64,000 bases of DNA. Origin: Sinorhizobium alkalisoli. GTDB taxonomy: Bacteria; Pseudomonadota; Alphaproteobacteria; Rhizobiales; Rhizobiaceae. Position numbers and translations under genes: made by a program. The stretch covers positions 310,001 through 374,000 of the forward strand of contig NZ_CP034909.1 in NCBI RefSeq assembly GCF_008932245.1. The letters are read 5' to 3'. Of the stretch, positions 3,988 through 62,449 are shown piece after piece (the first letter of the stretch is position 1; each line of letters opens with the position of its first letter). The notes below the pieces were generated by a model. It ran no database searches. It saw nothing but the letters and a program-made list of their open reading frames with translations, and was not told where the DNA came from.

Positions 3988-3990
3988 ACG

Positions 3991-4812
3991 ATGGTCAGGT
4001 GGTCCCGCTTCAACATCGCCTCAGTCGTTCTCGGCTTCGGTTTCCTCTACTTGCCGATCGTCCTCCTGGTAATTTTCTCTTTCAACGAGTCGAGGCTCGT
4101 CACGGTATGGGCCGGCTTTTCCACCAAGTGGTACACGCAGCTCTGGTACAACAGGGGACTTCTGGATGCCGCCTGGGTCACCATCCGGGTGGCGCTGCTA
4201 TCGGCGACCGTCGCAACGGTTCTCGGCACGATGGCGGCTCTGACGCTGGTGCGCTATTTGCGCTTCCGTGGGCGCGTGCTCTTTTCCGGCATGGTCTATG
4301 CGCCGCTGGTGATGCCGGAGGTGATCACCGGCCTGTCGCTGCTCTTGCTTTTCGTGGCGATCGGGCTAGACCGGGGTTTCTGGACGATCACGCTTGCGCA
4401 CATCACTTTTACAATGTGCTTCGTTGCCGTTGTCGTTCAGTCGCGGCTGTTGAGCTTCGACCGGTCGATCGAGGAGGCGGCGCTGGATCTCGGGGCCACC
4501 CCGATCAGGGCATTTTTTGCCATCACCCTGCCGGTCATTGCGCCGGCGGTCTTTTCCGGTTGGGTGCTGGCCTTCACCCTTTCGCTCGACGACCTCGTTA
4601 TTGCGAGCTTCACGACGGGACCGGGCGCCACGACCCTGCCGATGAAGATCTACAGCCAGGTGCGCCTCGGCGTGACGCCGGAGATAAACGCCATCTGCAC
4701 GATCCTCATTGGCATCGTCGCCCTCGGTGTGGTCATTGCCTCGGCTGTCACGAGGCGCCGGGAAATTCAGCGGGAGAGGGATGAGCGCGCAGCCTTCGCG
4801 GTGAGCGGCTGA
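3991..4812 (+). CDS. potI: Polyamine ABC transporter inner-membrane permease 2
   Basis: 273 aa, a multi-pass permease with the EAA loop EEAALDLGATPIRAFFAITL at about residues 160-180. It is the last gene of the potFGHI operon and ends 10 bp before the convergent AsmA-like gene, so the operon terminates at or inside that gene's 3' end. Sequence length and topology are normal for PotI. Confidence 0.9.
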   Translation: MVRWSRFNIASVVLGFGFLYLPIVLLVIFSFNESRLVTVWAGFSTKWYTQLWYNRGLLDAAWVTIRVALLSATVATVLGTMAALTLVRYLRFRGRVLFSGMVYAPLVMPEVITGLSLLLLFVAIGLDRGFWTITLAHITFTMCFVAVVVQSRLLSFDRSIEEAALDLGATPIRAFFAITLPVIAPAVFSGWVLAFTLSLDDLVIASFTTGPGATTLPMKIYSQVRLGVTPEINAICTILIGIVALGVVIASAVTRRREIQRERDERAAFAVSG

Positions 4813-4822
4813 TTGAGGGCGT

Positions 4823-6646: not shown

Positions 6647-6819
6647 GTTGCTCCGTTTGCCGTCGCCCCGCATGACACCGTCTGGATAGGCCGATGATTT
6701 GCATAAAGCAAATGCGCCCGGCCGAAAAATGTCGTCGTCGTCGCCTCGGGGACCGGGGCATGCTGTTTATCTTGCATTGCAGCATGATATAGAAGCAGAA
6801 ACAGGGAGAGGAGGAATAC

Positions 6820-8772
6820 ATGAACACAGATCGTCCTTTGTGGGTCCCGGATGCCGAGACGCTCGAGCGAAGCCCGATGGCTGAGTTCATCGCCTGGTGC
6901 GGCCGGCGCTTCGGCCGGACGTTCTCCGATTACGACGCCTTTCACGACTGGTCCGTAGCTGAGCGCGGCTATTTCTGGAGCGGCCTATGGGAGCACTGCG
7001 GCGTCCTCGGCGAGCGCGGCGAGACGGCGCTCGCCAATGGCGATCAGATGCTGGAGGCGCGCTTTTTTCCCGATGCAGAACTCAATTTCGCCGAAAACCT
7101 GCTGCGCGGCAGCGGCAACGATGATGCCCTGATTTTCCGCGGCGAGGATAAGGTCCGCTACCGGCTCTCCTGGGACGAACTGCTGCGTCTGGTATCGCGG
7201 CTGCAGCAGGCGTTCAAGGCGCAAGGCATCGGGGTCGGCGACCGCGTCGCCGCGATGATGCCGAACCTGCCGGAGACGATCGCGCTGATGCTGGCCACGG
7301 CCTCCGTCGGCGCCATCTGGTCGTCCTGTTCGCCCGATTTCGGCGAGCAGGGCGTGCTCGACCGCTTCGGCCAGATCGGTCCGAAGCTGTTCATCGCCTG
7401 CGACGGCTACTGGTACAACGGCAAACGCCAGGACGTCGACGCCAAGGTGCGCGCCATTGCAAAGAGCCTCGGCGTGCCGACGCTGATCGTTCCCTATGCG
7501 GGCGACAGCGCCGCGCTGGCCTCATCAATCACGGGCGGCATCGCCCTTGCGGATTTCATTGCCGGCCTCGAGGCAAAACCGCTCGCCTTCGAGCGATTGC
7601 CCTTTGCCCATCCGCTCTACATCCTTTTCTCCTCCGGCACCACCGGCGTGCCGAAATGCATCGTGCATTCCGCCGGCGGAACGCTGCTCCAACACCTCAA
7701 GGAACATCGCTTCCATTGCGGACTTGTGCCCGGCGAGAGACTCTTCTACTTCACCACCTGCGGATGGATGATGTGGAACTGGCTGGCGTCCGGTCTGGCA
7801 GTCGGCGCGACCCTCTGCCTTTATGATGGTTCGCCCTTCTATCCGGACGGCAACGTGCTCTTCGACTATGCGGCCGAGGAGCGCTTTGCCGTCTTCGGCA
7901 CGTCGGCGAAGTACATCGACGCGGTTCGTAAAGGCGGCTTCAAGCCGGTGGAAACCCACGATCTGTCCACCCTGCGCCTCATCACCTCGACCGGCTCGCC
8001 GCTGTCACCCGAGGGGTTCTCCTTCGTCTATGAAGGCGTCAAGTCCGATGTCCAGCTCGCCTCCATTTCCGGCGGCACCGATATCGTTTCCTGCTTCGTC
8101 CTTGGTAACCCGTTGAAGCCCGTCTGGCGCGGCGAAATCCAGGGCCCCGGCCTCGGCCTCGCGGTCGACGTCTGGAACGATGAGGGCAAGCCGGTCCGCG
8201 GAGAGAAGGGCGAACTCGTCTGCGCCAAGGCATTCCCGTCGATGCCCGTGAAGTTCTGGAACGACCCAGACGGCGCCAAGTACCGGGCGGCCTATTTCGA
8301 GCGGTTCGAAAATGTCTGGTGCCATGGCGACTTTGCAGAATGGACCCCACATGGCGGCATCATCATTCACGGTCGATCGGACGCGACGCTCAACCCGGGC
8401 GGCGTGCGCATCGGTACGGCGGAGATCTATAACCAGGTCGAACTGATGCCGGAAGTCGCCGAGGCGCTCTGCATTGGCCAGGATTGGCAGGACGACGTAC
8501 GCGTCATCCTTTTCGTTCGCTTGGCGCCGGGTGTCGAACTGACCGATGAACTGACGCAGGCGATCAAGAACCGCATCCGCAGGGGCGCTTCGCCGCGGCA
8601 CGTGCCGGCGAAGGTCATTGCCGTCGCCGATATTCCGCGCACCAAATCCGGCAAAATCGTCGAACTGGCCGTCCGCGACGTTGTGCATGGCCGTCCCGTC
8701 AAGAACAAGGAGGCGCTGGCGAATCCCGAGGCCCTCGATCTCTTCGCGGGACTGGATGCTTTGAGGAGCTAA
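6820..8772 (+). CDS. acsA: Acetoacetyl-CoA synthetase
   Basis: 650 aa, with full length for the ANL adenylate-forming superfamily. It includes the AMP-binding P-loop [17 protein letters not shown] (about residues 268-284) and the C-terminal [10 protein letters not shown] motif with the catalytic lysine. The N-terminal segment ([17 protein letters not shown]...) is diagnostic of acetoacetate-CoA ligase rather than acetyl-CoA synthetase. The enzyme activates acetoacetate released from poly-3-hydroxybutyrate or ketone-body breakdown. A strong AGGAGG ribosome site precedes the ATG. A phasin gene in the same window fits a PHB-cycling theme. The symbol follows rhizobial usage (aacS elsewhere). Confidence 0.9.
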
Positions 8773-46176: not shown

Positions 46177-46220
46177 TGGCTGGGGAACCTGGATTCGAAC
46201 CAGGACTAACGGAGTCAGAG
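46177..46220. repeat. attL, 44-bp copy of the tRNA-Gln 3' end
   Basis: Identical to 62406-62449. It carries only the T arm, variable loop, acceptor 3' strand, part of the anticodon arm and CCA, so it is not a tRNA gene by itself. Confidence 0.92.
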
Positions 46221-46227: not shown

Positions 46228-47478
46228 TCACCCCGTGTTTTTATTATATTTTCGCGCTTTTTGTGCCATCGGTGTGCCATTGATTCCCAACAGGAGGTTG
46301 CGCTCGGCGTCCGCAAGCATATCGGCATCGTCCGTGCTCGGGAAAAGGTGAGAATAAGTGTCCATCGTCACTTGGATCGACGAATGGCCCATGCGTTCCT
46401 GCACCATCTTGCCGGGAAGCTCTAACCCGCCATCCACGCGCCTGTTGATGCACCACGAGGCGAACCAGTGTCGCAAGGCATGCATCCCCGTGTACTTCGC
46501 GCCCACGACCGGGTTGCCCTCTTCATCTATCTCGCCGGTCGGCTTCACGACGCCGGCAGCGATTTGAACGGGGTGCAGCCCGCGCTTGATGATATTCGGG
46601 TGCCATTCGACGTTGCCCTCGCCGTTGGGGAAGACGAGGTTTAGATCCCCCTTAGGGCAGGTGAGTTTCCATTCCTTGAGCGTGTTGACGACAATCGGGG
46701 GCAGCGGAATCGTTCGTTGCCCGGCGTCTGACTTCGGCATGCCGATGACATGATATTTGTCGGCGCGTTGCCGCACGTGAACCTGTGCCTTTTCGAGATC
46801 GACATTATCCCAAGGTAAACCGCGAAGCTCTGAGGCGCGCAAGCCAGTAAAGATCGCCGTCAATAGCAACGGACGATAACGACCCTCAGCATGCTGGATA
46901 ATGTTGCGTATCTCCTCAGTGGTCGGGATATCGGCGCCGACGCGCAACCGGGCCTTCTGTCGGCGTTCTCTCGTGACGGCGCCCTTCTTCCGGCGGCTCA
47001 TCTCATGGACGGCATTGCGCATTACAAGCCCACGCTCCTGTGCGTCAGCAAGGATGCTGCCGAGGCTGACGGTGACGCGCTTGACCATTGCCACTGACCG
47101 GCCGTTTTCCCGCAACTGATCCTGAAACTGCCGGATGGTCGGCACGTTGATCTTCGAGAGCTTCAGGGTGCCCAAGAAGGGCGCGATGTGCAGATTGAGG
47201 TGTTGGCGATATTGATCGAGGGTCGAGCGCTCAAGCCCGGCCGCCTCGCCGCTGGTGATCCATTGCTGAGCGGCCTCCTTCACGGTGACGGTATCGGTGT
47301 CGGCGATATATGTACCTGCCCTTATCTCCACCTTGGCCTTCTCAACATAGGCGTCGGCATCCTTTTTTTTATCGAAGCTCTTCCGATGCCGACGGCCCTT
47401 GGCGTCCGTGTAATCGGCCAGCCACGCCTCTTTCTCGGTCCCATCCGGGCCTTTCCATTTTCGCTTGCGTACCGCCAT
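46228..47478 (-). CDS. int: Tyrosine recombinase (phage-type integrase)
   Basis: 416 aa. An N-terminal arm-binding region is followed by a core-binding SAM-like domain (about residues 60-165) and the catalytic domain. Catalytic residues visible are Arg214 in TGLRASEL, His333 and Arg336 in HALRHW, His365 in MGHSS and Tyr375 in DTYSHLF. It should recombine attP with the tRNA-Gln site. The start at 47478 follows GGGGGTG and lies one base after the stop of the ribbon-helix-helix gene, so the two are coupled. It sits eight bases inside attL. Confidence 0.93.
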   Translation of the reverse strand: MAVRKRKWKGPDGTEKEAWLADYTDAKGRRHRKSFDKKKDADAYVEKAKVEIRAGTYIADTDTVTVKEAAQQWITSGEAAGLERSTLDQYRQHLNLHIAPFLGTLKLSKINVPTIRQFQDQLRENGRSVAMVKRVTVSLGSILADAQERGLVMRNAVHEMSRRKKGAVTRERRQKARLRVGADIPTTEEIRNIIQHAEGRYRPLLLTAIFTGLRASELRGLPWDNVDLEKAQVHVRQRADKYHVIGMPKSDAGQRTIPLPPIVVNTLKEWKLTCPKGDLNLVFPNGEGNVEWHPNIIKRGLHPVQIAAGVVKPTGEIDEEGNPVVGAKYTGMHALRHWFASWCINRRVDGGLELPGKMVQERMGHSSIQVTMDTYSHLFPSTDDADMLADAERNLLLGINGTPMAQKARKYNKNTG

Positions 47479-47479
47479 A

Positions 47480-47785
47480 TCACACCCCCTTGTTTTTAAG
47501 CATTTCGAGAAGTTGCTCATTGGTAGCCCGCTCCCTATCGAGCGCCGTCTTCAGCATTTCGATCATCTGTTCGTGGCCTTTCGCCAGTTCCTGCTGGTGG
47601 AGAATTCGCTCCTTGGCGAGCCGGAAGTCTTCGAGAAACCCCGAAACATTTTCCGAGTTTTCCAGCCGCGCCACTATTTCGGCATTCAGGGAGCGCCCGA
47701 CTTTCGCGGCCTCGTCCACCAGGTGATCGCGTATGGTGGCCGGCATTCGCAGCGTCAGCCTGACCTCCTCTGATCCATCGTTCAT
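47480..47785 (-). CDS. Arc-type ribbon-helix-helix DNA-binding protein
   Basis: 101 aa. The N-terminal 45 residues are a ribbon-helix-helix domain (VRLTLRMPATIRDHLVDEAA, then GRSLNAEIVARLE), as in phage P22 Arc. The C-terminal half is a predicted coiled coil (about residues 55-98). It is transcribed ahead of int and probably controls int and the divergent excisionase gene through the palindrome at 47834-47876. Confidence 0.82.
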   Translation of the reverse strand: MNDGSEEVRLTLRMPATIRDHLVDEAAKVGRSLNAEIVARLENSENVSGFLEDFRLAKERILHQQELAKGHEQMIEMLKTALDRERATNEQLLEMLKNKGV

Positions 47786-47833: not shown

Positions 47834-47876
47834 CTATAACTGACATGACACTACCATGGTGTCATTCTAGTTATAG
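47834..47876. promoter_or_regulatory. Operator-like double palindrome between the RHH and excisionase genes
   Basis: Nested arms CTATAACT-N3-ATGACAC are mirrored by GTGTCAT-N3-AGTTATAG about a 7-bp centre. Upstream (47811-47835) are further CATTGACA direct repeats. The block ends at the excisionase ribosome site. A ribbon-helix-helix or Xis protein is a likely binder. Confidence 0.7.
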
Positions 47877-47889
47877 GAGGCTGATTCAA

Positions 47890-48087
47890 ATGGCAACGGA
47901 TGACATGGCTGTACCCGCAAACTTTGAGCTTGTTTGGGGCGTGCATGAAATTGCAAAGCTGATCGGCCGTACACCGCGGCAGACCTTTCATATGCTGTCG
48001 AAAGGTGAACTGCCCGCACGGAAAGTGGGTGGGCGCTGGGTCGCAGAGCGCGGCAAGCTGATCGCCTTTTTTATGGAAGCCGCATGA
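47890..48087 (+). CDS. Excisionase-like helix-turn-helix protein
   Basis: 65 aa. A MerR/Xis-type winged helix is visible: WGVHEIAKLIGRTPRQTFHM, then KGELPARKVGGRWVAERGKL. Such proteins direct excision or act as regulators in integrative elements. GGAGG lies nine bases before the ATG at 47890. It is divergent from the RHH-int operon and shares its operator region. Confidence 0.8.
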   Translation: MATDDMAVPANFELVWGVHEIAKLIGRTPRQTFHMLSKGELPARKVGGRWVAERGKLIAFFMEAA

Positions 48088-48734: not shown

Positions 48735-49541
48735 ATGAAAGGTTTCGCCAGTTGGAAACTCGATCTTCTCGACCGTATGTCGGCTGACAGCCGCCTTTCG
48801 GCGACTGATTTCCGGGTAGCTTATCGCCTGCTTTCCTACATGGACGCGAAAACCGGCGCTTGCTTTCCGAAGCAAGAAACGATCGCCTCGGATCTAGATG
48901 TAACGGACCGCACGGTGCGGAACGCGCTCGCCAAACTCCGCGCGTGCGGTTGGCTCCAAATCGAAGAACGGCCGCTGGCTAAGGGCCGCGGCAAATCGAA
49001 TCTCTATCATTTTGAAGATGCGACCACCGGAAGCACTTTTCCGGTGGTTGATATGACTATCGGAAACAGGGTTCCGGTAAACGACGCGACCACCGGAAAT
49101 TCGGCGCGGGACTTCCGGAAGTCTGCTTCCGGTGCCTCTAATATAGAACCCGTTGAAAAGAACACGTTGAATCGAGAGAGTGCGAAATGCGTTCCGCGCG
49201 CTCGAACACTTCCTGATGATTTCAGACCCGATCTGAGTGTTGCTCTCGCGGCTGGTATGAGCCAGTCCCAGGCCGAGCGGCAGGCTGCGATCTTCCTCGA
49301 CTACTACCGTGCCAACGGAAAGCCAATGCGCGACTGGAACGCCACCTGGCGCAACTGGATTCGCCGCGCACCCGATTTCGATCGCCGTTCGCAGGGGCAG
49401 GATCGCCAGCATATCGCCCACCAAGCTTACGAAGAGGCCCGCCAAGCCTTCGACAGAGAACATGAAGGAGGAGTTTTCGATGATGGCGTCGAACGTGCCG
49501 ACGATCCAGCCGGATATCTACCGCCCGGCGTCAGACACTGA
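48735..49541 (+). CDS. Replication initiator-like winged-helix protein (lambda O-like organisation)
   Basis: 268 aa. The N-terminal 90 residues form a winged helix-turn-helix (RLSATDFRVAYRLLSYMDAK, then QETIASDLDVTDRTVRNALA). The C-terminal region has a DnaT-like motif (FLDYYRANGKPMRDWNATWR, then NWIRRA). Between them the DNA carries a cluster of TTCCGGT repeats, which looks like an origin inside the gene, as in lambda O. It overlaps the next gene by 62 bases. Function as an initiator is inferred from these features. Confidence 0.72.
   Translation: MKGFASWKLDLLDRMSADSRLSATDFRVAYRLLSYMDAKTGACFPKQETIASDLDVTDRTVRNALAKLRACGWLQIEERPLAKGRGKSNLYHFEDATTGSTFPVVDMTIGNRVPVNDATTGNSARDFRKSASGASNIEPVEKNTLNRESAKCVPRARTLPDDFRPDLSVALAAGMSQSQAERQAAIFLDYYRANGKPMRDWNATWRNWIRRAPDFDRRSQGQDRQHIAHQAYEEARQAFDREHEGGVFDDGVERADDPAGYLPPGVRH
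49024..49134. repeat. Iteron-like cluster inside the replication gene (candidate origin)
   Basis: At least five full TTCCGGT/ACCGGAA cores and two near-cores occur in 111 bp: CCACCGGAAG (49024), TTCCGGTGG (49039), ATCGGAAAC (49059, one mismatch), TTCCGGT (49072), CCACCGGAAAT (49090), ACTTCCGGAAGT (49111) and CTTCCGGTG (49126). Copies alternate in orientation. Confidence 0.6.
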
Positions 49542-50007
49542 AAAACTGACCGTGCTGACCCGCCTGCTCGCCGCCTACCCATGCCGAGCGCCAAGCGACT
49601 TTAAGCTCATTAAACCCGCTTACCTGATGGCGCTCGAAGGGGTCAGCCGGTGGGCGCTTTTCACGGCGGAAAAACAGATCAATCAGGGCTCCCTCGGCCA
49701 TGGCTTTATGCCGTCTCCGTCGGAGTTGCGGCGCGAAATCGACCGCGTGATGCAGCCGTTCCGAGAGCGCGAGCGGCGGGCCGCCGAGGAACGGCGACGC
49801 TACGGATGGCCGGAAGAACCAGCAGTGATCCATGATGAAGCGTCCCGAGAGCGCATCCTTAAGGGTTTTCGGCAGTTGCGTGCGAACCATCCGGTCTCAC
49901 AGAAAACGCCACCGCCACCGCCGGCGCCGAAAATTCCCGACTATTCGCGGGAGCGGATCGAAATTAGTGCCGCGCTGCGCAGAACGCTGAGGGCAAAGAA
50001 GGATTGA
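49480..50007 (+). CDS. Replication-associated protein, possible helicase-loader partner
   Basis: 175 aa. The N-terminal part TEKLTVLTRLLAAYPCRAPS and the segment QGSLGHGFMPSPSELRREID occur in rhizobial prophage genes downstream of O-like initiators. The C-terminus is Pro/Arg-rich. AAGGAGGAG lies seven bases before the ATG at 49480 and the start lies inside the replication gene, so the two are coupled. A role analogous to lambda P (loading DnaB) is inferred from position, not from a motif. Confidence 0.55.
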   Translation: MMASNVPTIQPDIYRPASDTEKLTVLTRLLAAYPCRAPSDFKLIKPAYLMALEGVSRWALFTAEKQINQGSLGHGFMPSPSELRREIDRVMQPFRERERRAAEERRRYGWPEEPAVIHDEASRERILKGFRQLRANHPVSQKTPPPPPAPKIPDYSRERIEISAALRRTLRAKKD

Positions 50008-50019
50008 AGGGAGACGCTG

Positions 50020-50511
50020 ATGAAGGCCTTCGACTATTCCATTATGCCCGTCAAAGCCGCAGACGCAGCCCGCGCCGCGGCCAGCGAGACGCTCACGCTC
50101 GCCGACGTTAAGGCGATGAAAGCTGCATGGGAAAAGACGGAGAAGTGCAAGCGGACGCCAATCGAAAATTCGCAGAAGGAGGAGCAGGTCAAGCACCTGC
50201 TCGACGCTTGGAATGCCGCTGACGATAAAGCCCGCTGGGTATTCTTGCTGCGCACGACCTTACACCGCGAGCTTCAGTGGAGGAGGGGAACAGTGGGTCT
50301 CACCTCCCGAGAGCGCCAGCGCCGCTACCGTGAACGGCGCAAGGTCGGCCGCCGTGTGATCCGGGTAGAGATCGACGAGGTCGCACTTTGCGTCGTGCTG
50401 GAGGGGCTGAATTTTCTCGATCCGCAGGACGGGGATGACGGCGAAGCAATCGGGCGGGGGCTCACTGAAATGATCCAGGTCCTCTGCCGGGGGCTGGAAG
50501 GTGACGCGTAA
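50020..50511 (+). CDS. Hypothetical element protein with basic centre
   Basis: 163 aa. The N-terminal 90 residues are helical and charged. A strongly basic segment (LTSRERQRRYRERRKVGRRV at about residues 95-114) is followed by an acidic tail, REIDEVALCVV-like. The basic patch suggests nucleic acid binding. GGGAG precedes the ATG. No family recognised. Confidence 0.6.
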   Translation: MKAFDYSIMPVKAADAARAAASETLTLADVKAMKAAWEKTEKCKRTPIENSQKEEQVKHLLDAWNAADDKARWVFLLRTTLHRELQWRRGTVGLTSRERQRRYRERRKVGRRVIRVEIDEVALCVVLEGLNFLDPQDGDDGEAIGRGLTEMIQVLCRGLEGDA

Positions 50512-50546
50512 CGGCGCGCTCCCCGGGGATCTGGTAGGATTGGCCA

Positions 50547-50981
50547 ATGAGCGAACCGATATCAAACGAAATTGCTTTGCACGAAGCCGCCCACTGCGTG
50601 GCGGCCCTCCGGCACGAGATCGGCGTCCGCCACGTGTCAGTTGACGGCGAGGTTGCCCTAAATCCGCCCGGCGACCTTCTGGAACAGGGGCGCCATCACG
50701 GAGCCGTCGCCCTGGGATACGCAGTCGTTGCGCTAGCCGGCCAAGCTGCGGCGCCTACCACGGAAATGTCGAAATCGGATCAACAGCTTTTGGAACATTC
50801 GGTTTTTTTGGGGTCGTGGGGCGACGATCCCGATACCATGCGCCGCGCGCTTTCTGCGCTGGCAGCTCTCTTCGTTCAGCACCATCGCAAGGAGATCGAA
50901 AAGCTGGCGCTTGTCCTACATGAACGCGGCAGCATGTCGGGCACCGAGGTCGAGGAGTATCTGGGGAGCGTGAGGAAATGA
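50547..50981 (+). CDS. FtsH-protease-like (M41-type) domain without AAA ATPase
   Basis: 144 aa. HEAAH at residues 12-16 (ALHEAAHCVAALRHEIGVRH) and a downstream acidic helix match the zinc protease domain at the C-terminus of FtsH. The AAA module and membrane helices are absent. Such stand-alone domains occur in phages and integrative elements and may act as small metalloproteases. It overlaps the next gene by four bases (ATGA). Confidence 0.7.
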   Translation: MSEPISNEIALHEAAHCVAALRHEIGVRHVSVDGEVALNPPGDLLEQGRHHGAVALGYAVVALAGQAAAPTTEMSKSDQQLLEHSVFLGSWGDDPDTMRRALSALAALFVQHHRKEIEKLALVLHERGSMSGTEVEEYLGSVRK

Positions 50982-51385
50982 CGGACAAGGACAACGAGGA
51001 ACTCGCCAAGATCACGGCGCGTGCCACCGAGATCCAGGCCCGCCTCAATACCGCCTACTCGGCGGAAGAACTTCGTCGGCCGCTAAGCACGCGTGTTGTG
51101 CACTCGCTGATCGCAAGTTCAATCGCCAGCGTCGCTGTGAAGTTGGCGTCACTTTCTTCCCGTATCGCCTTACTTGAGGAAGGCGGGATCAGATACGCGG
51201 GCATTTACCAACGCGCGGTCGCGTACTCAAAAGGCGACGCCGTCACACACGCCGGCAGCCTATGGATCGCATTAAAGACTGTTCCTGTAGGCGCCGCGCC
51301 CAGCAGCGATCCTGTCTATTGGCAATTGGCGGCTAAGGGCGGCAAACCGGTGAAGTGCACTCCGCAGGGGTCGAGGTCGGTATGA
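50978..51385 (+). CDS. Hypothetical protein with a carbohydrate-binding-module-like C-terminus
   Basis: 135 aa. The C-terminal segment GIYQRAVAYSKGDAVTHAGS, then LWIALKTVPVGAAPSSDPVY and WQLAAKGG, follows the short chitin-binding/tail-fibre-associated module pattern. The N-terminal part is helical. Coupled to the neighbours on both sides by ATGA overlaps. Its role in the element is unknown. Confidence 0.6.
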   Translation: MTDKDNEELAKITARATEIQARLNTAYSAEELRRPLSTRVVHSLIASSIASVAVKLASLSSRIALLEEGGIRYAGIYQRAVAYSKGDAVTHAGSLWIALKTVPVGAAPSSDPVYWQLAAKGGKPVKCTPQGSRSV

Positions 51386-51552
51386 CTGTCATCGATTTAC
51401 CTCCTCGAAAGGCCGATGCAATCGAAAGAGCTTGGGAGCTCGCTGCCGAGTACCTGCAAAGGCCCCTCACAGATGAGGAAGCTGCGATCATCGTTGCGGC
51501 CGTCTTTCGGTATTTCGACGAGCCCGATGCACCTACGACACAGCTCCAGTGA
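51382..51552 (+). CDS. Small acidic hypothetical protein
   Basis: 56 aa, acidic and helical (RAWELAAEYLQRPLTDEEAA, then IIVAAVFRYFDEPD). It starts in an ATGA overlap with the preceding gene, which supports translation. No family recognised. The 250 bp after it (51553-51801) show no gene. Confidence 0.55.
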   Translation: MTVIDLPPRKADAIERAWELAAEYLQRPLTDEEAAIIVAAVFRYFDEPDAPTTQLQ

Positions 51553-51801
51553 CGCTGAGGGCGTTATGATCTTCGGATCGGCCGCTGGCGGGACTTTAGC
51601 GCGCAAACATGAGCCACGTTGAGCGGAGTCCACGAATGAGAAGAGGCGATGTCCAGCGCCTCGTTAGTGCAGAGGCGGGATACCGCTTCCGACCCCAAGG
51701 CGACATTTGCTGAGTGACCCGGAATGCGAAACCCTTCACCGTTGCGGACCTTCCGACGCCGATTTTCTTTCCCAAAACGGCGAGCGTTAAACCACAGCAC
51801 A

Positions 51802-53586
51802 CTAAGCGCTTTGTTCAACGTCAGCGATTTTCGCCGCTATCACCTTATCCTGGGTTGCGTCTCCACCGTCGGCGGGTTGAACGTCCACACCAAATCGGGC
51901 CACGCGTCGTGCGTTAATCGGCGACTCCGAGCCGATCTGCTCGAGCGCTTCCCTAGCGCGCCGTGGGACCTCTCGCATCTCCTCAGACGCATTCACTATC
52001 CGCTCAAACTGGAACACGTTGGCGAGCATTTGCCGTAATTCCTGGCCCGAGTGCGACTTAAATGCCTTCCGATATTCCTCAACGGGCGCAGCCGCTAGGA
52101 CCCTCAACTGACCTTCACCCCAACCGCCCTTGATAGCCATCATTATTGCTGCAAGATCCGGCGCTTCTTCTATCTCAACAGCTCGCGCCTCGAATGCCGC
52201 GCGGACATCCCCATCATCGACGTTATCGCCAAACAGATTCTCCTGAAGATCGAAAAAACTCCGCTCCTCGTTCCGATTAGCCATATAGTGATCGAGCAAC
52301 TCTTTCGCCTGTTCAGGCCGTCCTAGTTCCTTGAATAGCTTAACCGTCCCGTTGAGGTTGGTGGGGGAGATGTATTTAACGTTCTTCAGGAAAGACTGAT
52401 AGATTCCATCCAGGACCTCGTCCTGATTGTTATCGAACGTATCATGGTAACTCCGCCATGCGTCCTCGAAGGACCCATCCGCCTTCGTGGCCACCACGCG
52501 TTCATGAACAACCTGCGCCGCCTTCTTCACCCGCATGGGATCGAAATGGCCATTGCAAACGCCATCGATAAGTACCAGATCAAGGTCGTCCGTCCACGTA
52601 TATCCATAGGCTTCGAGCAGACTGTTCCATGCTGCTTCTTTGGTCGGAAGGTCATCTTCCGACGGCCATCCGAACGTGTTCATTGTCTTATTCTTAAGGA
52701 AGGCCAACGACGGCGCGTGCTCGGGTTGATCATGGGACCATGAAAATAGTGCAATCGAACTGATTGCAATCTTCAGAACCTCGGGATCAAGCTCCTTAAG
52801 CATAGGCTGAATCGCTGTTGCGAAACGGAGAATTCGCTTTATGACACGAATATTGGTTATGCCAAGCGCCACGCACCGGTCCCGAATCTCCTGACCGACG
52901 GGATCAGGAATGTCGATCGCGATGCCGGAGGAAACCTCGGGAGACGGCTCGTAGACAAGGGAAACGTCGACCACTTTCTCGAGGTTCTTTTCGAAGTCGC
53001 GCTTACCGTCCCCATCCAGTTGCTCGTCGTTCAGGATCAAGACGATCTTGCAGTTCCGTTGTTCCCGCAAATAGGAAATCAGGCCGAGTACATCACTGAC
53101 ATCGAGGTTCTGTCCGCGGCGTTCGAGATCATCTATGCAGACGATCTGATCCCGTATCGTCATGAATGAGACGAGTGATGTGGCATCAGTGCCCACTACA
53201 TCTCTGATCACCGGCAATGATGACGCGATCCTCATCAGCTTTCGCCAGGAACCGAGTTTAGAAACGTATGCGTCGAGCGTTGCTAGGTCGGCCCTCCTGA
53301 CCCCTTCGCTCAAGGTGATTACGTTCTCGAAGATCGCAAACCTCAGTTCATCGAGGGAATTCACACCAAAAAGCGAAACATACGAGTATCGCGCCAGACC
53401 AATCTTGTTGGCCTTTTGCGCCACTTCCAGTCGCTTCGTCCACGTATATGTCTTGCCGACACCCCATCTGCCTCGGATGCACAACACTTCTGGTTCAGCA
53501 CGAAGTAGGAATTGCGAGATCTCCTCTTGCACAAGCTGTACTGACATAACGGTCCTCAGATCAAATCTCGTCTTTCTTTCATTCAA
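51802..53586 (-). CDS. KAP-type P-loop NTPase, putative defence protein
   Basis: 594 aa. Walker A GRWGVGKT is at residues 39-46 and Walker B QIVCIDDLER at 147-156; the IDDLER form is typical of KAP/STAND-like NTPases. The C-terminal 400 residues are helical without a recognised effector domain. There is no clear transmembrane segment. It lies downstream of a membrane coiled-coil protein on the same strand. KAP NTPases are often found in phage-defence loci; that role here is inference. The ATG has only a weak ribosome site. Confidence 0.75.
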   Translation of the reverse strand: MNERKTRFDLRTVMSVQLVQEEISQFLLRAEPEVLCIRGRWGVGKTYTWTKRLEVAQKANKIGLARYSYVSLFGVNSLDELRFAIFENVITLSEGVRRADLATLDAYVSKLGSWRKLMRIASSLPVIRDVVGTDATSLVSFMTIRDQIVCIDDLERRGQNLDVSDVLGLISYLREQRNCKIVLILNDEQLDGDGKRDFEKNLEKVVDVSLVYEPSPEVSSGIAIDIPDPVGQEIRDRCVALGITNIRVIKRILRFATAIQPMLKELDPEVLKIAISSIALFSWSHDQPEHAPSLAFLKNKTMNTFGWPSEDDLPTKEAAWNSLLEAYGYTWTDDLDLVLIDGVCNGHFDPMRVKKAAQVVHERVVATKADGSFEDAWRSYHDTFDNNQDEVLDGIYQSFLKNVKYISPTNLNGTVKLFKELGRPEQAKELLDHYMANRNEERSFFDLQENLFGDNVDDGDVRAAFEARAVEIEEAPDLAAIMMAIKGGWGEGQLRVLAAAPVEEYRKAFKSHSGQELRQMLANVFQFERIVNASEEMREVPRRAREALEQIGSESPINARRVARFGVDVQPADGGDATQDKVIAAKIADVEQSA

Positions 53587-53805
53587 TCACGTTAAGTAGC
53601 ACCAATCTACACTTACGGATTGCCAGTTAGACACCCGTGCCCGAATGTCGGCTTGGGAGCAGCCGGGAACGACAGCAAATGACGCGCTCCAGTCGTTCCG
53701 TCGCGCGAGACGAACGTTAATCTTTCACCCGACGCGATAGTTCAGCCTCGCCGCGGGGGGTGTAACTTAACGTCGCGCAGTGCCGACTGACGGAAGACGT
53801 GGCTA

Positions 53806-54321
53806 TCATTGTGGCTGCTTTAGAATGTAGAGGCCGTCCCAGTCTTTGGTGATCGTCTTTTGTAGCGTTTCGAGCCGCTCAGCGCTTGCATTATTGGTTT
53901 GCATGGCACGGTCGAATTTTTCCCTCAGGTCCAAAAACTTGTCGGGGTCTACGGCCGGCTTCAAAAGATCAGCACCCGGCTTAGACGCGTCGCTTTTCAG
54001 GACCTCTTGAATGGCGGTGATCTGTGACGACGTTTCCTCGAGCGCCGAGCTCAAGGTTTTCATACTCTCATTAAGGGAAACCTGCTCCTGGGCCAACTGT
54101 TTGACTTGGTCCGTAAGTTCAAGGGCAACCTCCTTGGTTGTGAGCTTAAAGCCGTCCTTCGTCCATTCGAAATTTGCGACAAAGGGCAAACAGAAGAGCA
54201 CGGCGGCCAAGCCCATTATCACTGAATGGCCGGTAGATACCTCCACTCCCTTGAAGATCATCGTCAGTACGCCACCACCTAACAAAAGGCCGGCGATCAC
54301 CACAATTGCTTCCAACACCAT
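53806..54321 (-). CDS. Membrane-anchored coiled-coil protein upstream of the KAP NTPase
   Basis: 171 aa from the ATG at 54321 (AAGGGG upstream). Two N-terminal hydrophobic helices (VLEAIVVIAGLLLGGGVLTM and HSVIMGLAAVLFCLPFVANF) are followed by a long cytoplasmic or periplasmic coiled coil (LTDQVKQLAQEQVSLNESMK, then LEETSSQITAIQEVLKSD). No family recognised. It is co-directional with the KAP gene 220 bp downstream, so it may be its membrane partner. Confidence 0.65.
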   Translation of the reverse strand: MVLEAIVVIAGLLLGGGVLTMIFKGVEVSTGHSVIMGLAAVLFCLPFVANFEWTKDGFKLTTKEVALELTDQVKQLAQEQVSLNESMKTLSSALEETSSQITAIQEVLKSDASKPGADLLKPAVDPDKFLDLREKFDRAMQTNNASAERLETLQKTITKDWDGLYILKQPQ

Positions 54322-54341
54322 TGTTGCCCCTTCGAAAAACG

Positions 54342-54397
54342 ACGCGTTCAACACATTAATCACTAAGACGATTTAACATGTCGCGTATTGAACGCGT
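54342..54397. promoter_or_regulatory. Divergent promoter region with a 10-bp inverted repeat
   Basis: ACGCGTTCAA at 54342-54351 and TTGAACGCGT at 54388-54397 are perfect inverted arms 36 bp apart. They sit between the membrane coiled-coil gene and the DpnI-like gene, so one regulator could control both directions. Confidence 0.5.
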
Positions 54398-54409
54398 AGG
54401 GAGCGCAAG

Positions 54410-54856
54410 ATGGCCACTGTCCGACAGGCGCTTGGAACATTTGGAGAGGACCGGGTTGTCCGAGATTGCGATTGTCCCAGATGCAAGAGGGAGAAGACCC
54501 TCGTTCGCCTTCCCCCCAACTTCAAATGCGCGGACGTCATCTGTGATTTTTGCGGCTATTTGGCCCAGGTTAAGGCTTGTAGTGCGAAACGGTTGGACCG
54601 CCTGCCGAAAACAATCTTAGGCGCGGCATGGGGTCCCCAGCTGGAGCGTATGCAGGCGGCCATCTATTTTCCTCTTTATGTCGTTGTGGTCGGCCCGACC
54701 GCAGATTACTCAATCTTCTATCTTGCTGCGGATTTGCAGGAACCGGAGATGTTTAAGCCTCGTAAGCCTCTCTCGGAAACAGCTCGCCGCGCAGGTTGGC
54801 AGGGCTTTATCTACGACATGGAGAGTGTTGAAGATCGTGCCGTCCGGCTGCGATAG
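54410..54856 (+). CDS. DpnI/Dam-replacing-type PD-(D/E)XK nuclease domain protein
   Basis: 148 aa. A zinc-finger-like set of cysteines (Cys20, Cys22, Cys25 and Cys45, Cys48) surrounds the catalytic-like segment ADVICDFCGYLAQVK, with Asp42 and Gln53-x-Lys55. This layout matches the N-terminal catalytic domain of DpnI and Dam-replacing proteins, which cut DNA according to its adenine methylation. The usual C-terminal winged helix is absent, so recognition may differ. GGGAG precedes the ATG. It may be a defence nuclease; substrate unknown. Confidence 0.65.
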   Translation: MATVRQALGTFGEDRVVRDCDCPRCKREKTLVRLPPNFKCADVICDFCGYLAQVKACSAKRLDRLPKTILGAAWGPQLERMQAAIYFPLYVVVVGPTADYSIFYLAADLQEPEMFKPRKPLSETARRAGWQGFIYDMESVEDRAVRLR

Positions 54857-55015
54857 ATCTTCGGTTTCACGACTCGCGGGAGGACCTACGCGCTGGTCTG
54901 CTTCCGACCGTTGCGGGCGGTGGCGACAAGCACGATGAAAGGCTGGAAAGGTACGCTCTTTATCGACAACAGCGTTTATGCCCCAAAAGGATCTGCCCCG
55001 TGATATCCATTATGG

Positions 55016-56302
55016 ATGGCGCGATTCGCAACAGACTTGAGCCCCGCCGCGCTGCCGGCCACGTTTCGGCAGATGGCAGAGATTGTTGGCTGGTCAACTT
55101 GGCAACGACGTATTGAGTTGCTCAGGGCGGAGCTGGCCGGGAATCCTCTCTGGGAGCAATTCTTGCGGGAAAGGCATGGGCTCGAACTGGCCTTCGGCGA
55201 TGTCCGTCAACATTTGCGCGCAACCGGGCGATACCGCTGGCCCCCGAAAACTGCCGAAGAGTACCGGCTTTACTCCTTCCTGGCAGGAGCTGTCGGCATA
55301 TACGCGTACCTGAGCGCGCATGCGCAACGGAGGTTTGCGGGTGCCCTTCGCACTGCACTCGATAAGGAGTTCGGACTTGGCCCGTTGGCTTTCGAGGTCA
55401 AGGTTGCCGTACACCTGGTATCGCGCGGCTTTGATGTTGAGTTCCATGACCTGGAGAGCGGCGGCGGATTCGACTTTCTGGCCGCCTCGGGCACGACCCG
55501 GATTGAGGTCGAATGCAAGCACCTGTCCGCTGATGTTGGACGACAGATTCATCGACGCAAGCTTTACGCTCTGAGCGGGGTTCTGCAAGCGCCGATGGAA
55601 AGGGCTTTGCGTGAAGTAAGCCAGGGCCAGCTCGTGCGCGTGACGCTGCCCGGCAGACTCTCAGGGAACAAGGACGAACAACAGGCGCTGGCGGACAGGA
55701 TCGGCGCGATTGTGCGCGGAAAGGCGGATATCATTGATGATCAGGTTTGTATTGCTACGGTGCAGCCGTTTGCGCTGGAAACCTCTCCGTTCACGCTAAA
55801 GCGTGGTCACAGTCTGGTCATGGAGGATGTACAGCATTACCTGCGGGAGGCATTTGGAATCGACGGTGCGAACGTGGTTTCGCATTGGCATCCAGGTCGT
55901 GCGGCAATCATCGTCTCAATTGAGAGCAGAGAGCGGGATCGGGTCCTTCATCAGATCTTCAGGCACCTGAAGGCTGACGCGAAGAAACAATTTTCCGGCG
56001 AGTTGCCTGCATTTTTGTGCGTGCATCTCGCGGACGTCACGGAAGCGCAGTTGCTGGAGCTTGCAGATGCGGAGCGAACGGGCACTGTGACTGGTCTTCA
56101 GCGGGTGGTGAGTGCTCTTCTGCAGCGTCGTCCCCACCTTTATGGCGTCGCCATCATGACGGACGGACATGTGCGGCAGTCGCGGCAGCGTGGACGAGGT
56201 GGCGTCACGACATCGGTGCGGGAGGTGGGACCATCTTACGTATTTCACAATCCCAATCATGCATTGGCTAGCGATCAGGTACTTGGCCAAGTTTTCCTTT
56301 AG
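55016..56302 (+). CDS. PD-(D/E)XK nuclease-like protein of unknown family
   Basis: 428 aa. The stretch PLAFEVKVAVHLVSRGFDVE, then GGGFDFLAASGTTRIEVECK, carries the restriction-like catalytic pattern: Glu127 in the first helix, Asp153, and Glu166-Cys-Lys168. The N-terminal 110 residues and C-terminal 250 residues match nothing I recognise; GHSLVMEDVQHYLREAFGID may be a helical module. The ribosome site is poor; another ATG lies four bases upstream out of frame. Likely a nuclease in the element's defence cargo. Confidence 0.6.
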   Translation: MARFATDLSPAALPATFRQMAEIVGWSTWQRRIELLRAELAGNPLWEQFLRERHGLELAFGDVRQHLRATGRYRWPPKTAEEYRLYSFLAGAVGIYAYLSAHAQRRFAGALRTALDKEFGLGPLAFEVKVAVHLVSRGFDVEFHDLESGGGFDFLAASGTTRIEVECKHLSADVGRQIHRRKLYALSGVLQAPMERALREVSQGQLVRVTLPGRLSGNKDEQQALADRIGAIVRGKADIIDDQVCIATVQPFALETSPFTLKRGHSLVMEDVQHYLREAFGIDGANVVSHWHPGRAAIIVSIESRERDRVLHQIFRHLKADAKKQFSGELPAFLCVHLADVTEAQLLELADAERTGTVTGLQRVVSALLQRRPHLYGVAIMTDGHVRQSRQRGRGGVTTSVREVGPSYVFHNPNHALASDQVLGQVFL

Positions 56303-56507
56303 ACGGCTTTAAGATGACCGCTGTTGGCTTACGATAGATGGTGAATTCCAGCTAAAACTATAAGTTCAGAATGGAGGCGGCTTATTTCCTGCTAAGGGGG
56401 GCGGGTAAAAGTTGCCAAGGTCATCGCCAGCGGACCGGCGCCGTCGTCATGCGGAGAATTTTTTTGGCGCCGCAGAATAGCGGTGAGGTGGGCACGAAGG
56501 TTCAGAT

Positions 56508-56708
56508 ATGTGGAAGGCGCTCAAAGTCGTAGTTAATTGGGTGTGGGTGATCTCCCTTCTGGTCGCGGGAACCACTTTCGGTGTGATGGACGGCTGGGCG
56601 CATCATGGCTGGGTAGGTGCAGTCATGCTGGGCTTCGTTGGATTCGCCGCAGGAGCAGCTCTTGCAAGCTCGCCTGCGCTAATTCTGCAAATCCTCTCCG
56701 CCCTGTGA
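56508..56708 (+). CDS. Small membrane protein
   Basis: 66 aa with two hydrophobic helices (VVVNWVWVISLLVAGTTFGV and a second, GAVMLGFVGFAAGAALASSP). AAGG lies before the ATG. Unknown family; could be a holin-like or accessory protein, without direct evidence. The 200 bp before it are non-coding. Confidence 0.5.
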   Translation: MWKALKVVVNWVWVISLLVAGTTFGVMDGWAHHGWVGAVMLGFVGFAAGAALASSPALILQILSAL

Positions 56709-56741
56709 TTCTGGCCGAAACGCGATTATTTTTCTACTGTC

Positions 56742-57053
56742 ATGGAAAACGCGGCACGACCAAGAGGAAGGCCGGCGCATGAGCCGGATGCAACCAGGCG
56801 CCGCTTCGTCGAGGCGATGGCCGGTGCGGGCGTACCTCAAGCGCAGATCGCAGCCGTGATTGAGGTCACCGTGCCGACCTTGCGGCGACATTATCGGTGC
56901 GAATTGAACAGGGGCGCGGCCAAGGTCGAGGCCAAGCTAGTAGCCAATCTGCTGACCATCGCCAACGGAACGGACGGCACGGCGCTCAAAGCGATCATCT
57001 TCACTTTGCAGTCCCGGTTTGGCTGGTCCCGCTATGCGCCGAGACGCAGCTAA
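56742..57053 (+). CDS. Short HTH protein resembling small terminase-type DNA-binding proteins
   Basis: 103 aa. The pattern RPRGRPAHEPDATRRRFVEA, then VPQAQIAAVIEVTVPTLRRHYRCEL, is a helix-turn-helix common in rhizobial prophages, often annotated near terminase genes. The end ALKAIIFTLQSRFGW also fits. No large terminase is present. If it is a small terminase subunit, it could redirect packaging of a helper phage, as in phage satellites (inference). Confidence 0.65.
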   Translation: MENAARPRGRPAHEPDATRRRFVEAMAGAGVPQAQIAAVIEVTVPTLRRHYRCELNRGAAKVEAKLVANLLTIANGTDGTALKAIIFTLQSRFGWSRYAPRRS

Positions 57054-57220
57054 AAGCATGCCATCTCAGTTGGTCGCAGCTCACCATCGCGACGGCGCCG
57101 GGCGGATTTCGCCCTCGATTCACGGGACGAACCCGAGAGACTTCTCCGCACGACGCAACGTTTTGACGATCACCCTTCGCGAGCTGTTTCCGCTGTGGGA
57201 CCATCAGGGACAAGGCGCCG

Positions 57221-57553
57221 CTATTTGCAGCCCTTGCTCTTGATGGTGGACTCGATTGCGTTGACCTTGCCCTTCGATACGGCAACTTGTCCTTCCTTAT
57301 CGCCGCCGAATGTGCTGGATGCGGGTACTCCTATCAAGAACACACCGATTGCGTCTCCCGTCGCGGCTTGGTTCTGCTGCTTTGAAACGGCGGCGAGGTT
57401 CGCCTGCTCCTTGAGCAGTTCTTGGGCCAGTCCCGCGCAACTCTGATTGCTGTATGCAGCCATCGGAATATCGACCGGCACTATGGCATCGGGCCGCTTG
57501 GCGCACGAAGAAATTGCCAGCGTAGCCGCCAGAGCGATCAAACGAAATTTCAT
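57221..57553 (-). CDS. Small lipoprotein
   Basis: 110 aa with signal MKFRLIALAATLAISSC (lipobox ISSC, Cys17). The mature part has Cys at CAGLAQ and the C-terminal KGC, and a glycine-containing centre, GDAIGVFLIGVPASSTFGG. GAGGGG lies before the ATG. Similar lipoproteins occur in rhizobial genomes and prophages; function unknown. Confidence 0.7.
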   Translation of the reverse strand: MKFRLIALAATLAISSCAKRPDAIVPVDIPMAAYSNQSCAGLAQELLKEQANLAAVSKQQNQAATGDAIGVFLIGVPASSTFGGDKEGQVAVSKGKVNAIESTIKSKGCK

Positions 57554-59100: not shown

Positions 59101-59127
59101 GGGTCAAGCGAGAGTATATTGCCAGGT

Positions 59128-59756
59128 ATGACACAATCGGAAAACGCACGGATCTGGGCCAGCCGCGCCTTCATGGATTCAACACGCATAAAGGGATTTA
59201 CCGCTGATCCATTGCCGACGGGGATGAGCCTCGGCCAGATGGCCGAAATGAATGAAGCTGGCGAACGGATGTCTGCTGAGCATTTCCCAGAGAAAATTTT
59301 CGCCAAGTATCCCGACAAGATGGAAAGGAAGCAGTCCGATCTCGTGCTTGCCGCAGGAGCGGTGGTGGTTTCGGCGGCCTGCGCGGATGTGCTGCGGCAA
59401 TTCGATCTCGGCCATTCCTCGCTCTATCCGATCAAGCTTTTCCAGCATGACCGCAAGACGCCCGTGGAGGGCGAATATTTTTGTCTGAATATCGGCGAGC
59501 GCAAGGCTGCTTTCCTGCCCGAATACTCGCGGGGAGTCACTACGCTCGGCTCCGGAAAACTGCTTATGCCCCCAAATCTTCATGACGACGATGTGGCTAT
59601 CAGCCCGGACGCACTCGAGGGGCCCGATCTGTGGGTAAGCCCGCCCTTAATCCGCATTTTTTTTTTCTGAGCGAGCGTCTTACGCAGGCCCTGCGGGCCG
59701 GAAAAATGGGCAGGGTATTTGGTTTTCGCTCCTGCCGCGTCGTAAAACCTCACTGA
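59128..59756 (+). pseudogene. Imm11-like (DUF1629) protein, frame broken at a T10 run
   Basis: The frame from ATG 59128 (MTQSENARIWASRAFMDSTR) contains the DUF1629/Imm11-like core SDLVLAAGAVVVSAACADVL. It stops at TGA (59668-59670) directly after ten consecutive T residues (59657-59666). Reading one frame over after the run gives LSERLTQALRAGKMGRVFGF, then RSCRVVKPH and a stop at 59754-59756, the expected family C-terminus. Adding one T restores the full protein of about 209 aa. So this is a slippage, phase-variable or sequencing-error site. Imm11 proteins are immunity proteins of polymorphic toxins; no partner toxin is seen. Confidence 0.62.
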
Positions 59757-59803: not shown

Positions 59804-60787
59804 ATGAACCGGCGCAAAGCAGAAACAAAGGCCGACCCGATGCCCGAGCGGGTCGAGCCGTGCCTCGCGCTTCTGGCATCCGAACCACCAAAAGGGCCGG
59901 AGTGGGTCCACGAGATCAAATGGGACGGTTACCGCGTCGCGGTCCATATCGAACCTGCTAGCGTCCGCATTCTCACGCGCAGGGGCTACGACTGGACACA
60001 TCGTTTCCCTGCTGTCGAGAGAGCGGCCGAAGCGCTTCAGCCAATTACGATGATTCTAGATGGTGAGGTGGTTGTCCTGGACGACCGGGGCCGGCCGGAT
60101 TTCGGGATGCTGCAACAGGCGCTCGGTGGCGTCGGCGGTATGAAGACAGCGGCCGCCGCGATCCTCTATGCATTTGACCTGCTGTACTACGACCGTCGCG
60201 ACATTCGCGCTCTGCCGCAGAGAGAGCGCCGACAGATGCTCGAAGGCGTCTTCTCCAGCCAGAGGGGCGCGATCCTGCTCTCGGAGGAGGTGCAGGCCGA
60301 TGGCGCGGAGCTGCTTCGTGTCGCGTGCGAGCACGGCCTTGAAGGCATTGTCAGCAAGAACCGGGAGAAGCCCTATCGGTCGGGGAGCCGCTCCGGCGAT
60401 TGGCTGAAGATCACCTGCTCTCGGCGCGATAGTTTCCTAATCGTGGGTTTCGAACCATCGGAAGCCTTACCAAGTGCCATCGCAAGATTGCTGCTGGCCG
60501 CGCGAAGAGGAGGCGAGCTAGTCTATGTCGGCGGCGTCGGAACCGGCTTCAGCGACAAGGAAGCTTTCGCCCTGAGGAAGGTCCTCAACGAGATTGCTAC
60601 CGACAAGCCAGCGGTGAGTTTGAAGCGCAAGGGCGTGATCTTCACCGAGCCCGTGCTCGTCGCTGAGATCCAGTATCGCGCTTGGACGCACGAGGGAAAG
60701 CTCCGGCACCCTTCCTTCAAGGGGCTACGCTCAAAAGCCGACGAAACAGATGTGTATGAAGTTGACGCCATCGGTGATTCAGAATGA
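59804..60787 (+). CDS. Stand-alone ATP-dependent DNA ligase (LigD ligase domain)
   Basis: 327 aa. Nucleotidyltransferase motif I EIKWDGYR with adenylated Lys39, motif III/IIIa LYAFDLLYYD, motif IV EGIVSK and motif V WLKITCSRRD are all present, followed by the OB fold with GGVGTGFSDKE and LRHPSFKGLR. The phosphoesterase and polymerase modules of full LigD are missing and no Ku gene is in the element. It may seal element DNA during repair or replication. ATG 59804 is first; 59840 is an alternative. Confidence 0.88.
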   Translation: MNRRKAETKADPMPERVEPCLALLASEPPKGPEWVHEIKWDGYRVAVHIEPASVRILTRRGYDWTHRFPAVERAAEALQPITMILDGEVVVLDDRGRPDFGMLQQALGGVGGMKTAAAAILYAFDLLYYDRRDIRALPQRERRQMLEGVFSSQRGAILLSEEVQADGAELLRVACEHGLEGIVSKNREKPYRSGSRSGDWLKITCSRRDSFLIVGFEPSEALPSAIARLLLAARRGGELVYVGGVGTGFSDKEAFALRKVLNEIATDKPAVSLKRKGVIFTEPVLVAEIQYRAWTHEGKLRHPSFKGLRSKADETDVYEVDAIGDSE

Positions 60788-60833: not shown

Positions 60834-61511
60834 TCAGCGCATCACGAGTTCCCGCAAGAGCCAAGCGGGCAATGATGTGACGAGCCGCGGATGAAACGCA
60901 GTGCTCGCGACCACGCCGACAACGGTTCCACGAACCGTATCGAGGATTATCGGGCTTCCGCTCATCCCGGCCTCGCATCGCTCGCTGGTCCAAACGTATC
61001 GGGCGTTAACGTCCAAGCTGTGGCAAACCCATTTGCCTTCAAGCGTCAGCCACGCGCCTTTGCGATTGCCGGGGGGCAATGCCGCGTTCTGTTCGGCAGC
61101 AATAGGCAAGCCTTCCCGTTCCTCAACAAACGCGCGATAGGCTTCCGATTCATCCTCAAGTTCATGACCGTCTGGTTCGCCGAGCACTGCGACATCGGCT
61201 ACAGGATCGACGAACAGGCATTCCACGGTAATCGTTGGTTCGTCCCCGAGCATGCCCACCAGGCGGGGGTAGGTCCTCTCCTCGGTCATCATTATGCCGC
61301 CGATTGCAGGCGGCATATGCGGTAGGCAATGCGCACAAGTGATGATGACAGGCTTATCGACTGTTTGTGCTACGAATCCCCGGCCGTCCCCGACCCGGAT
61401 CACGGAGCTCTTGGCGTATTCAAGCGGATTGATGGCACCTGGCACTTGAGTGAGGCGCTGAGTGTCGCATTTCGGTTCAACCAGTTCTGCATGGGTGGTG
61501 TCTTCGGACAC
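60834..61511 (-). CDS. Cytoplasmic trypsin-like serine protease
   Basis: 225 aa. The catalytic triad is visible: His61 in ITCAHCLP, Asp106 in DPVADVAVLG and Ser184 in CEAGMSGSPIIL. There is no signal peptide, so it acts in the cytoplasm unless exported otherwise. Stand-alone trypsin-like proteases occur in defence systems where they process partner effectors; no clear partner adjoins. Function unknown. Confidence 0.75.
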   Translation of the reverse strand: MSEDTTHAELVEPKCDTQRLTQVPGAINPLEYAKSSVIRVGDGRGFVAQTVDKPVIITCAHCLPHMPPAIGGIMMTEERTYPRLVGMLGDEPTITVECLFVDPVADVAVLGEPDGHELEDESEAYRAFVEEREGLPIAAEQNAALPPGNRKGAWLTLEGKWVCHSLDVNARYVWTSERCEAGMSGSPIILDTVRGTVVGVVASTAFHPRLVTSLPAWLLRELVMR

Positions 61512-62405: not shown

Positions 62406-62449
62406 TGGCTGGGGAACCTGGATTCGAACCAGGACTAACGGAGTCAGAG
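62406..62449. repeat. attR, 44-bp repeat within tRNA-Gln
   Basis: Identical to 46177-46220. It coincides with the 3' 44 bases of the intact tRNA-Gln gene (minus strand). Confidence 0.92.

Follow-up and report, generated by a model that had tools for sequence, protein, structure and literature searches.

Four adjacent genes of defence type in Sinorhizobium alkalisoli raise the question of whether they form one undescribed defence system or are separate genes that came to share an insertion slot. They lie at positions 51802–56302 of a 64-kb stretch of contig NZ_CP034909.1 (hereafter the window, numbered from its first nucleotide). A check of the open reading frames (ORFs) reproduced the position and the orientation (−, −, +, +) given by an earlier sequence-only reading. 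The reverse strand encodes a KAP-type P-loop ATPase of 581 amino acids (51802–53547) and a membrane coiled-coil protein (53806–54321); the forward strand encodes a DpnI-family catalytic-domain protein of 148 amino acids (54410–54856) and a PD-(D/E)XK protein of 428 amino acids (55016–56302). Judged from sequence comparisons, the interval is likely to be the cargo slot of a 16.2-kb satellite that is integrated at a tRNA-Gln gene and resembles a phage-inducible chromosomal island (PICI), and the defence-type genes in the slot would have been acquired separately and not as one system. The observations that carry this reading are the ends of the element, its backbone genes, the differing cargo of islands in the same genus, known defence systems in two of their slots, and the unlinked occurrence of the gene families elsewhere.

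The element is bounded by two identical repeats of 44 nt, which are 16,229 bp apart (46177–46220 and 62406–62449); the right copy lies inside the tRNA-Gln gene. Its G+C content is 57.3%, compared with 62.5% in the rest of the window. At the left end, a tyrosine integrase (46228–47520, reverse strand; phrog_1, E-value 1.5e-64; PF00589, 2.5e-15) is followed by an Arc-like ribbon–helix–helix regulator (47480–47785, reverse; PF03869, 1.1e-7), a weakly matching excisionase-like helix–turn–helix protein (47845–48087, forward; phrog_1840, 2.2e-4), and a replication initiator of the HTH_36 type (48735–49541, forward; phrog_270, 3.6e-12; PF13730, 1.9e-12). Four further backbone genes on the forward strand, designated here by their first positions (49477, 50020, 50547, and 50978; together 49477–51385), form the left edge of the cargo slot, which thus lies between the replication block and the gene of the small terminase subunit (TerS; 56742–57053, forward). 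TerS was assigned because of its match to phrog_309 (1.3e-6; phrog_12540, 1.1e-22) and because a 58% identical relative directly precedes the large-terminase gene in a prophage-like locus of the genus (L224). Farther to the right are an ATP-dependent DNA ligase (59804–60787, forward; PF01068, 4.1e-33) and a protein with a trypsin-like protease domain (60834–61511, reverse; PF13365, 3e-6). A match of the stretch 59119–59670 to Imm11 immunity proteins was weak and did not reach the cut-off (0.0075).

By definition, a PICI has, among other properties, no tail, portal, or large-terminase genes of its own. None of these and no capsid gene was recognized among the scanned proteins of the element (a few small frames lay outside the scan), and the gene 50978–51385 matched no more than some 50 residues, C-terminal or internal, of portal and tail-fibre profiles. 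The presence of the repeats, the integrase, the initiator, and TerS, together with the lack of recognized tail, portal, large-terminase, and capsid genes, indicates a PICI-like build. Integration at a tRNA gene, the integrase, the excisionase-like protein, the initiator, TerS, and a size within 10–19 kb are features in common with PICIs and capsid-forming PICIs; the lack of capsid genes separates the element from the latter. A scan of viral contigs with the initiator returned no relatives.

Relatives of TerS were found in seven of 33 genomes of the genus including this one, one of them weak. Eight loci of the genus were retrieved in nine regions; among them are a 4.1-kb contig (L210), a locus without recognizable backbone (L223), and the prophage-like L224 mentioned above. 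Four islands have between three and seven backbone genes in common with the window. Beyond TerS, these are the initiator and 49477 in both L207 and L208 (three each), the genes 50020, 50547, 50978, and 57778 and the ligase (83% identical) in L226 (six), and 48463, the initiator, 49477, 50020, 50547, and 50978 in L209 (seven). L225 has TerS only. Flanking repeats were located at tRNA-Glu in L207 (49 nt), tRNA-Arg in L225 (52 nt), and tRNA-Lys in L226 (46 nt); the 29-nt repeat at tRNA-Glu in L208 is less certain, as several tRNA-Glu copies are present there, and no flanking repeat was found for L209.

The content before TerS is different in each of L207, L208, L209, L225, and L226. Nine selected proteins of these islands were submitted to PADLOC. 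The slot of L207 contains a reverse transcriptase of the RT-Toprim_I-C type (1.3e-190), and that of L226 contains the phospholipase (2.4e-164) and the cyclase (1.2e-125) of a cyclic oligonucleotide-based antiphage signalling system (CBASS). In L226 (7855–11535), one strand encodes the phospholipase and the cyclase together with a 359-amino-acid protein, whose C-terminus weakly matches mREase_IV, and a relative of the window's membrane protein; a transposase was also seen by eye in this slot. The cargo of L208 is a single protein of 660 amino acids, that of L209 comprises several proteins without assigned function, and small hydrophobic proteins precede TerS in L225. Just after TerS, L225 encodes a KAP ATPase of the PDC-S20 type that is divided between two frames (3764–5215) and matched the PDC-S20, QatA, and PifA models. 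The earlier reading had described the four genes as typical of defence-island composition, and defence-type cargo on a mobile element is supported by these results. The combination of the four genes has no name in any of the profile libraries searched. In L207 (reverse-strand frame 6200–8067), Pfam identified a prohead protease as well as a capsid protein, and similar genes were seen by eye in L208 and L225; portal and large-terminase genes were not noticed in these three islands, for which no systematic scan was made. Because of the protease and capsid genes, some related islands may make their own capsid protein and possibly represent a type of satellite that brings its own capsid.

Whether the four families accompany each other outside this genome was examined at 153 ATPase loci, which comprise the best 80 of 231 confirmed genome loci and 73 loci on viral contigs (redundancy kept; flanks of 3 kb or more on either side in 106 of the 153). 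In profile searches, none of these loci contained a relative of the DpnI-like, the PD-(D/E)XK, or the membrane protein, even at an E-value of 1. Conversely, 15 PD-(D/E)XK loci were inspected, namely nine of 14 plasmid records and six of the seven matching foreign genomes (385 searched), with G502 and five plasmid records left out. A KAP relative was present at one of them and the membrane and DpnI-like families at none, and none of the 15 has backbone genes of the element. Three relatives of the DpnI-like protein were found (L167, L185, and L186, the last of which is short on one side), none of them near the other three families. The families are rarely or never adjacent elsewhere and thus travel separately. 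The co-occurrence test proposed with the idea of a four-gene cassette thus came out against one conserved cassette, and a single conserved defence system is not supported.

The start of the ATPase was set at ATG 53547 in preference to TTG 53586, in agreement with the database copy (P0001) and most aligned relatives. The protein matched PF07693 with 26.2 bits (gathering cut-off 20). The Walker A lysine (K32), four residues of the Walker B motif IDDLERR (D139, D140, E142, and R143), and also N173 and R234, all of which are expected to serve in binding and hydrolysing ATP, are identical in all 91 aligned relatives; T33 is kept in 89. KAP P-loop ATPases typically, although not universally, have transmembrane helices between Walker A and Walker B. 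In the window's protein, no hydropathy window exceeded 1.6 and no membrane segment is predicted; a window above this value between the two motifs was found in one of the 91 aligned sequences. The AlphaFold2 (AF2) model reached a predicted local distance difference test (pLDDT) score of 89.2, the structure search effectively covered residues 1–282, and a sequence search against the PDB gave no match.

The nearest profile is phrog_4740, which was matched over its full length (residues 15–566 against profile positions 2–624 of 627; 1.9e-58). The PADLOC candidate label PDC-S49 was matched in its ATPase part (6.1e-20), but the match is limited to residues 37–211 of 594 and profile positions 29–195 of 624 and is thus far from full length. 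The KAP-type P-loop domain is also found in the defence systems PifA and QatA; the window's ATPase nevertheless matched neither model at an E-value of 1, and PDC-S20 only at 0.015. Another known defence system with a KAP ATPase is Tmn. Literature searches gave no paper naming PDC-S49 and, among the papers listed, none recognized as an account of this ATPase, the nuclease, or the island family.

The protein search scored the best 7995 candidates. Within the order, matches came from seven of 249 genomes, the present one among them, and mostly involved the ATPase part. At 31 of the 153 loci the gene sits in the gpA–gpQ interval of a P2-like prophage, and a P2 portal gene is located downstream in 35 viral loci. 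The gpA–gpQ locus has been described as an anti-phage hotspot (Rousset et al., PMC9122126); Table S5B of that study comprises 169 P2-hotspot systems, of which the ATPase may be one. One hotspot copy (L101) is 35% identical to the window's ATPase and has near relatives in 123 of 5426 E. coli genomes. In a mechanical comparison of the other loci, no upstream gene was common to all, and hydrophobic frames preceded the ATPase in a minority (e.g., L041, L053, L086, and L124). When the element's genes were sought near these loci, a single weak Arc-type match was obtained (L160).

The DpnI-like protein was identified by PF06044 (4.7e-15) and by homology to the catalytic domain of R.DpnI (PDB 4esj, 6.6e-7). 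The residues to compare in R.DpnI are Asp53, Glu64, which is a metal ligand, and Lys66, and its catalytic and winged-helix domains are each specific for methylated GATC (PMC4117772). Asp53 and Lys66 are kept here as D42 and K55, whereas Glu64 is replaced by Q53, which is a glutamine in all three aligned relatives as well; the numbering of the 4esj chain is, to judge from the motif, three ahead of that of DpnI. The winged helix is missing, as the protein ends at 148 amino acids and the match extends no farther than position 153 in the chain of 257 residues. Because each R.DpnI domain recognizes methylated GATC by itself, a one-domain enzyme is plausible. The profile was built from four sequences, no relative was found in phage records, and a D12-type adenine methyltransferase is encoded elsewhere in the host genome.

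The PD-(D/E)XK protein is identified by its relatives, its AF2 model (pLDDT 91.8, predicted template modelling score 0.88), and residue conservation: D153 is present in all 49 aligned sequences, E166 in 47, and K168 in 48. As the key residues of both the ATPase and the nuclease are invariant or nearly so among relatives, these are conserved genes and not chance frames. The match to Pfam Mrr_cat (0.0019, 18.8 bits) is below the cut-off of 21, no Pfam family was matched above its cut-off, and neither NCBIfam nor PADLOC gave a match. Sequence comparison with the PDB gave a best E-value of 0.87, and Foldseek returned no match at 0.001 or better; the core is similar to that of the archaeal Holliday-junction resolvase Hjc with a probability of at most 0.85 over 45–52 columns and E-values of 0.5 or worse. 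Besides the protein itself, 63 relatives were retrieved at an E-value of 1e-3 among the best 7996 candidates scored; a scan of viral contigs with the alignment found none. The near-duplicate loci L165 and L233 have neighbours in common, as do, more weakly, the pairs L179–L182 and L168–L183, and the distant loci L183 and L184 share a large neighbouring gene (68.6% identity over 707 residues).

These properties of the two nucleases bear on the possibility that at least some of the four genes, and perhaps all, have functions outside defence; the DpnI-like protein could then be catalytically dead and the PD-(D/E)XK protein could serve repair or DNA processing. The glutamine in place of Glu64 and the resemblance of the core to Hjc resolvases speak for this possibility. 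However, PD-QXK nucleases are described (PMC11037411), and the PD-(D/E)XK family is spread over unrelated plasmids and chromosomes and was found at its 15 loci without the backbone genes of this element. A role outside defence is therefore unlikely, although it retains appreciable weight.

The membrane protein was characterized by its ORF, its relatives, and hydropathy. The frame is open to GTG 54363 (185 amino acids), and hydrophobicity is concentrated in two segments, one at residue 19 and one at residue 47. Translation probably begins at ATG 54321, close to the starts of the three nearest relatives; two Rhizobium relatives start earlier than the equivalent position. The profile matches were a weak coiled-coil type and a weak, partial holin (phrog_9316, 0.0025). 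At an E-value of 1e-3, the gene is present in two of the 33 genomes of the genus, this one and one other. A scan of viral contigs returned no relatives. Apart from the copy behind the CBASS genes of L226, relatives on two Rhizobium plasmids (L163, 6983–8420; L164, 6987–8420) directly follow a metzincin-like metallopeptidase gene, which was assigned by Pfam in L163. The membrane protein could be a portable partner, joined by satellites and plasmids to unrelated modules (the KAP ATPase, the phospholipase-type CBASS of L226, and the metzincin-like peptidase), each of which would thereby receive a membrane-acting end, and the PD-(D/E)XK protein could be the first of a new family of nucleases that defend as single genes. 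This combined proposal is rather doubtful as a whole. The least known and new-looking pieces of the locus are the PD-(D/E)XK family and the membrane protein that travels between modules.

A narrower association would be a two-gene unit in which the ATPase acts as a switch with the membrane protein as its effector, the nucleases being separate. The membrane gene lies upstream of the ATPase on the same strand, both are poor in G+C (51.7% and 53.3%, respectively, compared with 57.3% for the element), the membrane protein follows CBASS genes on the same strand in L226, and the hydrophobic frames upstream of a minority of the other ATPase loci fit such a pairing. Against it stand the ATPase loci, none of which contains a relative of the membrane protein in the search with a profile of six sequences, and the gap of 258 bp between the end of the membrane gene and the ATPase start, which is long for an operon. 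We consider such a unit improbable.

Several observations weigh against the interpretation of the interval as a satellite slot with separately acquired genes. The label satellite is drawn from gene content. The slots of L208, L209, and L225 yielded no recognized defence gene, where PADLOC covered two L209 proteins (no match) and not the 660-amino-acid protein of L208 or the small proteins of L225. In one of the 15 PD-(D/E)XK loci, a Cupriavidus plasmid (L162), a KAP relative in pieces lies 2 kb from the nuclease gene. A second look at the ATPase neighbours, which took frames up to 600 nt on either side of the 153 loci, revealed recurrence only lineage by lineage. An upstream gene of 224–265 amino acids on the same strand is common to 12 of the 80 genome loci, all of the Desulfuromonadales type (L044, L048, L050, L051, L058, L059, L061, L064, L065, L067, L077, and L084), and ParA-like and other frames upstream are common to eight viral loci. 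These recurrent frames make a partner possible in some lineages; the Desulfuromonadales gene is possibly a lineage-specific partner or the mark of a shared insertion site. A coiled-coil-like frame lies downstream in five Desulfuromonadales-type loci.

Finally, the two divergent pairs in the one slot could be co-regulated. The inner genes, which encode the membrane and the DpnI-like protein, are divergent with 88 bp between their start codons (ATG 54321 and 54410). The shared divergent promoter proposed earlier was not recovered in a scan of 51300–56900 for promoters of the sigma-70-like type (none found, 2.6 expected by chance), and no Rfam family was matched at gathering score within 51000–57500. 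That all four genes are one undescribed system, in which the ATPase senses infection, anchoring or transmission falls to the membrane coiled coil, and the nucleases cut DNA, is very improbable: the adjacency of the two divergent pairs in one slot and the restriction of the DpnI-like and PD-(D/E)XK genes to this one of the 33 genomes (E-value 1e-3), with the rarity of the membrane gene in the genus, are outweighed by the 153 ATPase loci without the other families, the 14 of 15 PD-(D/E)XK loci without any of them, and the membrane gene's places behind CBASS and metallopeptidase-like genes.

For the favoured reading of independent genes in a satellite slot, the following mode of action may be considered. 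The KAP protein would be an ATP-dependent and probably oligomeric sensor-switch, whose helical C-terminal half recognizes infection and stops phage production without the other three proteins. The PD-(D/E)XK protein would be a DNA-cutting enzyme acting alone, and the DpnI-like protein would cut adenine-methylated incoming DNA or may have lost the ability to cut. The membrane protein would play an accessory role and would also have been recruited to a CBASS operon. For the satellite, the benefit would be that its host and the niche of its helper phage are shielded from competitors.

Two of the genes can be tested singly. The soluble KAP ATPase belongs to a family that recurs in the P2 hotspot, including that of E. 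coli, for which laboratory phages exist, and the PD-(D/E)XK nuclease represents a family without a confident match in Pfam, NCBIfam, or PADLOC. As the same slot in related Sinorhizobium islands also holds CBASS and RT-Toprim genes, it can be mined for further defence genes.

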